A stretch of 64,000 nt of DNA from Stenotrophomonas maltophilia (GTDB lineage Bacteria; Pseudomonadota; Gammaproteobacteria; Xanthomonadales; Xanthomonadaceae), in the NCBI RefSeq assembly GCF_006970445.1, contig NZ_CP033877.1, forward strand, positions 876,750 to 940,749. Reading direction: 5' to 3'. Of this stretch, positions 27,889 through 53,695 are shown piece after piece; positions within the stretch are counted from its first letter, which is position 1; each line of letters begins with the position of its first letter. A program made the position numbers and the translations under genes. The notes beneath the pieces are model-generated. The model did no database searches. It was not told the origin of the DNA and saw only the letters and a program-made list of their open reading frames with translations.

Positions 27889-27932
27889 GGGGTTTTCGGC
27901 AGGGCTTGCAGCCCTGCACCTGCGGACGCGAT

Positions 27933-27989
27933 GGCAACGGCAACGGCAACGGCAACGGCCGAAGCAACGGCCGAAGCAACGGCAACAGC
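27933..27989 (+). repeat. GGCAAC hexanucleotide microsatellite
   Basis: Four GGCAAC units, two GGCCGAAGCAAC units, then GGCAACAGC. The region 28390-28417 (CTTCTGCTTCGGCTGTTGC...) is the complementary type on the other side of the block, so the two could pair. Confidence 0.8.
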
Positions 27990-28005
27990 ATGCATTCCGT
28001 GGGAT

Positions 28006-28109
28006 GGCGGGGCGGTGTGGGCAGGCAGGACACGCCGTAAACCCATCCATGGGGGCTCGATGGCGCCATCCATGGCGCCAACGGTCCTGCCTGCCCACAC
28101 CGCCCCGCC
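28006..28109 (-). repeat. Double-hairpin element 1
   Basis: Perfect 26-bp outer arms (28006-28031 and 28084-28109) enclose the conserved core, read on the minus strand. Inner hairpin P2 is TGGCGCCAT-GG-ATGGCGCCA. P3 has loop ATGGAT and a TTTAC bulge. Both loops present CATGGATG, a match to the CsrA/RsmA consensus CANGGANG. Confidence 0.85.
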
Positions 28110-28133
28110 TCTGACAGATTCCTGCTGCTGTTG

Positions 28134-28180
28134 GTAGGTGTCGACCTTGGTCGACACGGTAGATCCACGCCATGCGTGGA
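28134..28180 (+). repeat. Two GTAG palindromes
   Basis: GTAG plus GTGTCGACC/GGTCGACAC (28134-28157), then GTAG plus ATCCACGC/GCGTGGA (28159-28180), head to tail. These are diverged SMAG subtypes. Confidence 0.8.
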
Positions 28181-28226
28181 CGCTTATCGTTTCCAATTCG
28201 AAATATTCGATTTCGATGGAGATTCA

Positions 28227-28248
28227 TCCACGCATGGCGTGGATCTAC
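28227..28248 (-). repeat. GTAG palindrome, reverse orientation
   Basis: Inverted copy of the GTAGATCCACGCC type. Together with the copy at 28159 it brackets a roughly 46-bp AT-rich centre (28181-28226) that contains TTCGAAATATTCGA. Confidence 0.8.
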
Positions 28249-28272
28249 GACAGATTGCGGAAAACTGTCGAA

Positions 28273-28374
28273 GGCGGGGTGGGTCCGGTTGCGGGGGCGT
28301 GAGCGCCATGAATGGCGCGACCGAGGCTACATGGACGTATTTACGCCGTCCCCCGCAACCGGGCCCACCCCGCC
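28273..28374 (+). repeat. Double-hairpin element 2
   Basis: 25-bp outer arms (28273-28297 and 28350-28374) with a single T-G pair. P2 is GCGCCAT-GA-ATGGCGC, the only one of ten loops in which GGA has become GAA. P3 pairs GC...TAC with GTA...GC around ATGGACG; three of its pairs differ from the consensus with compensation. Its P3 loop ACATGGACGT matches the full CsrA SELEX-type core. Confidence 0.85.
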
Positions 28375-28542
28375 ATCCCACAGGAAACCCGCTTCTGCTT
28401 CGGCTGTTGCTGTTGCTCCAGCTCGCAGCAGGTGCAGGGCTGCAAGCCCTGCCGAGCAACACCCTCCTTACGAACGACTGACGTGACGCTCATGCATCAT
28501 GCGCGAGGCTGTCCGCTTGCTGTTCGAGTGGAGGTGGCAACG

Positions 28543-36350: not shown

Positions 36351-36383
36351 GGGTTCGGCAGGGCTTGCAGCCCTGCACCTGCG

Positions 36384-36406
36384 GTAGTGCCGGCCGCTGG
36401 CCGGCA
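36384..36406 (+). repeat. Single SMAG element
   Basis: Canonical GTAG palindrome (CCGGCC/GGCCGG core) inserted immediately after the left boundary palindrome of block 2; block 1 lacks it. Confidence 0.85.
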
Positions 36407-36446
36407 ACAGCAATAGCAACAGCAACAGCGTGCATTCTGCGGGTTG

Positions 36447-36550
36447 GGCGGGGCGGTGTGGGTGGGCAGGACACGCCGTAAACCCGTCCATGGGGGCTCG
36501 ATGGCGCCATCCATGGCGCCCACGGTCCTGCCCACCCACACCGCCCCACC
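36447..36550 (-). repeat. Double-hairpin element 3
   Basis: Outer arms of 23 perfect base pairs (36450-36472 and 36525-36547), extendable past one mismatch. Compared with element 1, two positions in the arm changed on both sides, preserving pairing. Minus-strand core: P2 loop CATGGATG, P3 loop CATGGACG. Confidence 0.85.
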
Positions 36551-36606
36551 TCTGACAGATTTCCGCGGCTGTTGGTAACTGCGGCCGTCGTTCTGCGCCG
36601 CTGTTG

Positions 36607-36630
36607 GTAGGTGTCGACCTTGGTCGACAC
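36607..36630 (+). repeat. GTAG palindrome
   Basis: GTAG plus GTGTCGACC/GGTCGACAC, identical to the copy in block 1 at 28134. Confidence 0.8.
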
Positions 36631-36659
36631 GATTTTTCTTTCAGATATCGAATGAATCA

Positions 36660-36731
36660 TCCACGCATGGCGTGGATCTACCGTGTCGACCAAGGTCGAC
36701 ACCTACCAGAGCAGTCGACCAAGGTCGACAC
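36660..36731 (-). repeat. Cluster of reverse GTAG palindromes
   Basis: The GTAGATCCACGCC type reversed (36660-36681), the GTAGGTGTCGACC type reversed (36683-36706) and a third GTCGACC/GGTCGAC copy lacking the GTAG end (36714-36731). Confidence 0.75.
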
Positions 36732-36778
36732 CCGCCAAGGCAGAACGCCGTTCCGACAGATCGCGGCAGTCTGCCGAA

Positions 36779-36880
36779 GGCGGGGTGGGTCCGGTTGAGG
36801 GGGCGTGAGCCGCATGGATGCGGCGACCGAGCCTCCATGGACGGATTCACGGCGTCCCCCGCAACCGGACCCACCCCGCC
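36779..36880 (+). repeat. Double-hairpin element 4
   Basis: 25-bp outer arms (36779-36803 and 36856-36880) with one A-G mismatch. P2 is GCCGCAT-GG-ATGCGGC, differing from the others by a compensated swap. P3 contains a T-A pair where others have C-G. Loops are CATGGATG and CATGGACG. Confidence 0.85.
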
Positions 36881-37035
36881 ATCCCCCAGTAAGCCAGCTT
36901 CTGCTGTTGCTTCGGCTTCTGCAGGTGCAGGGCGCAGCCCTGCATGAAAATCCCACCCCCTACCAAGGTAGGGCGGCCCGCGCGGCAGCGCCGGACTATC
37001 CTCGAACCCATGACTTTGTCTGGGAGGGCTGCGTC

Positions 37036-53587: not shown

Positions 53588-53695
53588 GAGGCGAGAGGCC
53601 AGGCCGATGCAGGACCGTGAGCGCCATGGATGGCGCGACCGAGCCCCCATGGATGGGTTTACGGCGTGTCCTGCATCGGCCTGGCCTCTCGCCTC
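53588..53695 (+). repeat. Double-hairpin element 5
   Basis: Outer arms of at least 26 perfect base pairs (53590-53615 and 53668-53693), extending by A-T and G-C to 53588/53695. The arm sequence differs completely from elements 1-4. Core: P2 GCGCCAT-GG-ATGGCGC (53621-53636), linker GACCGAG, P3 at 53644-53664 with loop ATGGAT and bulge TTTAC. GGA triplets at 53628 and 53651, 23 nt apart, both in CATGGATG. Confidence 0.87.

Follow-up and report, generated by a model that had tools for sequence, protein, structure and literature searches.

A large family of dispersed double-hairpin repeats in Stenotrophomonas maltophilia with paired ANGGAN loops, candidate docking modules for RsmA

The five double-hairpin elements in the 64,000-nucleotide stretch of Stenotrophomonas maltophilia DNA analyzed here (the window) are members of a large hairpin family scattered through this genome and many related ones. 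The copies share one structure, a constraint on their loops and loop spacing, and one folding strand. On sequence grounds, the idea that these elements bind RsmA is well supported, though not wholly new, and we think it probable that they represent CsrA/RsmA docking RNA modules that are read from the GGA strand and together titrate RsmA.

Direct reading confirmed the coordinates, strands, and sequences originally claimed for the five elements, and a covariance model (R1) trained on 86 copies, of which other genomes supplied 78, recovered exactly these five in the window (E values of 4.9e-25 to 7.3e-20) and no sixth. Pair 1 consists of element 1 on the minus strand (left member, 28006 to 28109; 104.8 bits at 28011 to 28106) and element 2 on the plus strand (right member, 28273 to 28374; 85.3 bits at 28275 to 28370). 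Pair 2 consists of element 3 on the minus strand (left member, 36447 to 36550; 100.1 bits at 36452 to 36547) and element 4 on the plus strand (right member, 36779 to 36880; 94.6 bits at 36781 to 36876). Both pairs are enclosed by composite repeats of about 0.55 to 0.59 kb with inverted ends, which recur in this and in related genomes: the repeat around pair 1 (27899 to 28452, approximately 0.55 kb) has GCAGGGCTTGCAGCCCTGCACCTGC-like ends, and the one around pair 2 (36358 to 36943) has, from its sequence, inverted ends of the same kind. The pair-1 span gave many matches in the own and related genomes, ending near query positions 186 to 199 and 753 to 771. Element 5 (53588 to 53695, plus strand; 98.7 bits at 53593 to 53688) is unpaired and lies in the gap between two divergent open reading frames, whose products we take by eye to be threonine-dehydrogenase-like (minus strand) and S46-peptidase-like (plus strand).

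In element 5, an outer stem of about 28 bp (P1) is followed inward by hairpin P2 (53621 to 53636, plus strand; GGA at 53628 to 53630) and hairpin P3 with its TTTAC bulge (53643 to 53665, plus strand; GGA at 53651 to 53653), both supported by the sequence and by covariation in the family. The two GGA triplets start at 53628 and 53651, that is, 23 nt apart as originally stated, with 20 nt between them. The reading of the loops was likewise correct: nine of the ten are CATGGAYG, and the tenth, in P2 of element 2 (28273 to 28374), is CATGAATG, the sole loop without GGA. The folding energies of all five elements lay well below those of 200 shuffles each (z scores of -7.7 to -10.8), and no shuffle was as good. 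The elements had also been said to fold alike, which holds for the fold supported by covariation but not for the minimum-energy folds, as only two of the five (28004 to 28111 and 36445 to 36552) show two separate hairpins. In the other three, the palindromic CATG/CCATGG of one loop pairs with that of the other loop.

Covariance modeling and genome searches, along the lines of the check proposed with the original prediction, yielded a large family whose nearest Rfam kin is RF01731. An exact pattern found 56 copies in the own genome (4.55 Mb, a single contig), 25 on the plus and 31 on the minus strand, compared to none with the reversed pattern, and R1 gave 145 matches at E ≤ 0.01, far more than the five first noted. 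We aligned and read 133 of these; the other 12, which are outside our loop counts for this genome, comprise 11 weak or partial matches and one strong one (at 1831642). Neighbors less than 700 nt apart among the 145 matches formed 49 pairs spaced by 178 to 366 nt, all 49 in (-)(+) order, so that the two 5' sides of a pair face each other.

Searching one genome per species with the pattern returned at least 119 stretches, and 77 of the 80 titled stretches among the matches listed are, going by name, from Gammaproteobacteria. In an R1 survey of 397 genomes of the phylum, with at most 10 candidates scored per genome, 40 were positive, all belonging to this one class. A CsrA gene was present in 40 of the 40 R1-positive genomes, compared to 199 of the 397 sampled overall, which is consistent with a dependence on CsrA and is confounded by phylogeny.

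We relied on two alignments. The first (A2) retained 86 of 120 references, 34 having been dropped by eye as chance hits, irregular or near-duplicate copies, or copies from the own genome (12). The second (A3) covered 100 loci, namely, 79 of the 119 pattern-scan stretches and 21 of 30 R1 loci, and included 150 of 152 matches. Among these 150 copies outside the own genome, from up to 100 loci, 93.5% of the cells were paired; shuffles reached 52.4%, and sliding one side left no more than 46.6%. Since A3 was fitted to the structure of the model, its pair counts lean toward that structure. Cells changed on both sides numbered 2034, compared to 612 in shuffles; counted by pair, 33 of 33 were altered on both sides, hardly more than the 31.0 in shuffles. 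The sequence of the outer stem varies widely between loci, and its pairing is kept. Among the orthologues of element 5, inspected by eye, three of seven (L187 to L189) have compensating stem changes; pairing is complete in the stems of L188 and L189, the stem of L187 shows additional changes that are unpaired or wobble, and that of L186 includes one unpaired change. Judging by this covariation, the structure of the elements is under selection.

The reading CANGGANG holds for both loops, including where the search pattern did not demand it. P2 was not part of the pattern, and counts for P3 were restricted to rows that did not match it. GGA was found in P2 in 130 of 133 rows from the own genome and 139 of 150 rows from other genomes and, in rows not selected on P3, in the P3 loop of 73 of 78 and 49 of 52, respectively. 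Conservation of GGA, on which the original prediction had been staked, is therefore seen genome-wide, in the own and other genomes and in both loops. The base preceding GGA in P3, a fixed T in the R1 training rows, was variable (T in 20, G in 19, A in 8, and C in 4 rows from other genomes; G in 41, T in 22, and A in 14 rows from the own genome), and the base at -2 was an A in every row with a letter there (51 of 51 from other genomes and 78 of 78 own). GGA was present in P2 in 86 of 86 rows of A2, a set filtered by eye. An unfiltered automatic count of P2 in other genomes (n = 122) gave 66 CANGGAYG loops, 26 other loops with GGA, 19 without GGA, and 11 rows without a hairpin; many of the rows without GGA we judged to be misplaced hairpins, inserts, or chance hits. 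The distance between the two GGA triplets was 20 nt in 93 of 136 copies (range, 17 to 24 nt). CsrA and RsmE sites are described in PMC7652899 as ANGGAN loops with a variable N, occurring in pairs 10 to 63 nt apart with an optimum above 18 nt, at which one dimer bridges both sites. The elements show the same sequence features, with ANGGAN in hairpin loops and two sites within that range of distances.

Should only the GGA strand fold, G.U pairs would be tolerated in its stems and A.C mismatches removed, whereas equal counts are expected if both strands behave alike. We counted both on copies found by pattern and not by the model. At stem positions 8 to 28, a range fixed in the same analysis that first displayed the profile, the ratio of G.U to A.C was 146:18 in other genomes and 33:8 in the own genome, where 11 of the 33 G.U pairs fall on one position and are probably inherited. 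The excess of G.U ends at about position 28, where the stem ends. Over all aligned positions, the ratio was 167:47 in 96 elements from other genomes and 54:37 in 52 elements of the own genome (P = 0.09, not significant), and control hairpins from the same loci (n = 44) gave 36:47. The asymmetry was found both with an upstream gene directed toward the element (113:18) and with one directed away from it (36:3). Because G.U outnumbers A.C on it, the GGA strand appears to be the folding strand, which supports the earlier view that GGA gives the element a transcriptional sense. The simplest reading of these counts is that the folded molecule would be RNA. G.T is the better-tolerated mismatch in DNA too, and the asymmetry alone is thus compatible with a folded single DNA strand.

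The closest known system is TwoAYGGAY (RF01731), which Rfam types as Cis-reg and places in clan CL00106, shared with CsrB. The architecture of TwoAYGGAY, an outer stem enclosing two hairpins whose AYGGAY-type loops lie on the same strand, is present in our elements, and the two also have in common a CAAG/CGAG-like linker and poor conservation of the outer stem. In the own genome, RF01731 gave 19 matches, all 19 of which fell on an R1 match of the same strand, and 15 of them spanned the whole model at E ≤ 0.2. Nine more loci in four other genomes (G006, G022, G040, and G087) matched both models. No match exceeded the gathering cut-off in the window or in the own genome (best score, 42.8 versus 43 bits), nor at 18 loci from other genomes; in 20 R1-positive genomes, 11 had a match at E ≤ 0.01, 2 were above the cut-off, and 9 had no match at this E value. 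By Rfam's rule, the elements are not members of RF01731, since their scores fall below the cut-off, although the architecture is the same. They differ from TwoAYGGAY in having a conserved TTYAC bulge, GGCG 3' of P3, and a shorter P3, and in being dispersed as over 100 copies that are often in pairs.

CsrB, RsmY, and RsmZ are single genes with many sites. The elements resemble them in having GGA hairpin loops but carry two sites per module, with many modules per genome. Members from Yersinia (L116) and Sodalis (L117) score above the threshold of Ysr224 (RF02770), a family that is annotated on the complement of the GGA strand, without GGA loops. On elements of the own genome, the Ysr224 model reached 25 to 37 bits, again on the complement, compared to a gathering score of 70. 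Ysr224 is listed as temperature responsive in PMC9029176.

PMC2864571, where TwoAYGGAY was described, lists it for the human gut, gamma-Proteobacteria, and Clostridiales, and binding of CsrA by TwoAYGGAY was proposed in 2014 (PMC4333381). The earlier remark on the lack of a known published description thus holds only in part, as a cousin and the proposal of CsrA binding for it are in print. We found no description of the dispersed, paired form in our searches of open-licence PMC papers, and neither a literature search on RsmA and Stenotrophomonas nor passages of an Alcanivorax sRNA paper yielded anything on these repeats. The scale of copies, the pairing, and the strand evidence thus look new, while the motif and the CsrA idea had already been published for a close cousin.

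Binding of RsmA, transcription, and titration by the elements are what we infer from these sequences. A locus-specific stem of 25 to 28 bp would present two hairpins with ANGGAN hexaloops about 20 nt apart, a geometry that one CsrA/RsmA dimer could clamp. This TwoAYGGAY-like family would be an intergenic repeat that has spread across gammaproteobacterial genomes. In the own genome, it mostly takes the form of outward-facing (-)(+) pairs, and a transcript that runs through such a pair in either direction should contain one binding module. The most likely role would be the joint docking and titration of RsmA by many copies, each weakly transcribed; the long stem may protect the RNA, and local effects on the transcript that carries it are possible. 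Several observations speak against such docking modules. According to PMC7652899, SELEX ligands mostly have at most 4 contiguous pairs, compared to the long stems of the elements, and very stable structure is said to possibly disfavor CsrA. Moreover, three of the five minimum-energy folds hide the loops, the annotation of Ysr224 is for the opposite strand, orthologous sites turn over, and, as described below, elements in tandem gaps lie sense and antisense at similar frequencies.

The strand asymmetry could also arise from folding of the GGA strand as DNA, into single-stranded hairpins of a mobile element whose loops contact a transposase or recombinase. We regard this as unlikely. It would account for dispersed, multicopy intergenic repeats with inverted pairs and for the composite repeats with inverted ends; strand-specific folding does not itself separate RNA from single-stranded DNA, and the asymmetry does not depend on how the genes are oriented (the ratio is 36:3 where the upstream gene faces away). 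However, a free base before an invariant GGA is predicted by CsrA and not by a DNA recognition loop, and R1 had no match at 32 loci with a Y1 transposase (PF01797), a set made up of the two such genes in the own genome and of 30 taken from over 150 matches in the genus. Neither plasmids nor phages nor E. coli gave a blastn match to a 96-nt element query, a weak probe because this query includes a unique stem, and a stricter core pattern found one exact match among IMG/VR viral contigs (L274), the only one in that collection.

The elements share with the REP/BIME and TIR families of RAYT and TIRYT transposases (PMC3733652 and PMC2817692) a palindromic, intergenic nature, inverted pairs, and the same host genus, and they differ in lacking a GTAG foot and in having a strand-specific pairing constraint and ANGGAN loops. 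REPs do occur in the window, e.g., GTAGATCCACGCCATGCGTGGAT, and these are Stenotrophomonas REPs published in PMC2817692. A link to RAYT or TIRYT is unsupported, given the result at the 32 Y1 loci. The TIR-1152 repeats of S. maltophilia are characterized as "self-complementary, close together" in PMC3733652. We rejected identity with this TIR of Di Nocera, as the TIR next to the likely orthologue of the "1152" TIRYT gene (L220, assigned by genome position and not by name) is GGGGTCAGATCCCTTTCGC..., an unrelated palindrome. A Y1 transposase gene, L054 (G000:C1:4342806), lies between inverted repeats AAAAGGGGACGGAGGGGATTAAGTCG and is of the TIRYT kind.

RsmA docking modules acting in trans can be set against cis-acting mRNA elements, i.e., RsmA sites in 5' or 3' untranslated regions that control the neighboring gene, which we hold to be improbable. 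Gene calls came from our own codon-bias predictor and not from annotation; in other genomes, 117 elements had genes on both sides, and 30 of 147 without a gene on one side were set aside. The typing of RF01731 as Cis-reg agrees with a cis role, as do the 3' sides of the elements, which are close to a gene (median of 132 nt from the center in other genomes), and the upstream gene, which mostly points at the element (72:45 in other genomes, P = 0.016; 35:21 in the own genome). This excess, however, stems from convergent gaps outnumbering divergent ones (37 versus 9 of 117 in other genomes and 13 versus 6 of 56 in the own genome), and few contexts are divergent. Tandem gaps were occupied alike in sense and antisense (35 versus 36 in other genomes; in the own genome, 22 versus 15 and, in a second run of the predictor, 17 versus 13), and the neighbors therefore give no assurance that the GGA strand is transcribed. 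Additionally, elements are gained, lost, and swapped at orthologous sites. Among the best 30 of the loci from 61 genomes (the own included) for the site of element 5, 7 have the element, one of them with a P3 insert, 9 have a different, oppositely oriented element, and 14 lack a complete element. For the site of pair 1, 19 loci were compared: both matches are strong in 13 of them, and in three others one match is strong and the second weak or truncated. Among further loci of this site, some have lost one or both elements. The context speaks against a plain untranslated-region role and for a function independent of the neighbors. Promoter scores 5' of the elements exceeded those of the mirror control (P = 2e-7 in the own and P = 0.008 in other genomes) and were set aside because the copies are related and their flanks differ in composition.

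Least likely, and very improbable, is that the elements are REP-like repeats (mRNA stabilizers, transcription barriers, or chromosome palindromes) whose GGA was kept by copying from a few masters and gene conversion: they are always intergenic (0 of 56 own and 0 of 117 other elements lie inside called genes), prefer convergent over divergent gaps, and have exchanged interiors between subtypes, but their stems differ yet stay paired, the N beside GGA varies while GGA is constant across many genera, and no T-run follows the stem on the GGA strand. An intrinsic terminator on the GGA strand was ruled out by this missing T-run, as at least 6 T in the 8 positions directly 3' of the stem were found in 0 of 54 own and 1 of 112 other elements (mirror control, 0 and 5).

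If RsmA binds the elements, the number of candidate high-affinity sites would rise by hundreds, dependent on pervasive transcription, and modeling of Csr/Rsm titration would change. We tentatively put forward, as a conjecture we ourselves rather doubt, that the elements are a self-spreading, RNA-active gammaproteobacterial repeat whose sole product is a two-site RsmA/CsrA module, and that read-through on either strand would turn them into an RsmA sink, a genome-distributed Csr buffer beside the CsrB-type sRNAs. Were RsmA to bind the elements, repeats usually dismissed as structural noise would have a function in trans, and the Rfam families TwoAYGGAY and Ysr224 would join into one. The comparison of G.U and A.C between strands is a cheap probe for other palindromic repeats.

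Some copies depart from the usual layout. Tandem or clustered arrays with a spacing of about 130 to 230 nt occur at L260:818-2050, L064:3111-3744, and L169:4879-5805, and at L196 a remnant, GAGGGGGCGaccACGCCCCCTC, occupies the site where relatives have an element and looks like an internal deletion that left the base of the stem. An insert of about 75 to 90 nt in the P2 loop, with hairpins of its own bearing AGGA loops, was seen in L287, L310, and L311 and, at different loci and in different species, in L191, L197, L198, L200, and L206 as well as in L003 and L052 of the own genome. Several copies of one Methylotuvimicrobium genome (L131, L156, L084, L066, and L133) have another P2 insert (GCAGGGCAGATTTTTGCTCC...). 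A different insert of about 75 to 80 nt enters the P3 loop at a constant point in L190, L307, L308, and L310 and is found in the own genome too (L006:1733-1908 and L375:56-225).
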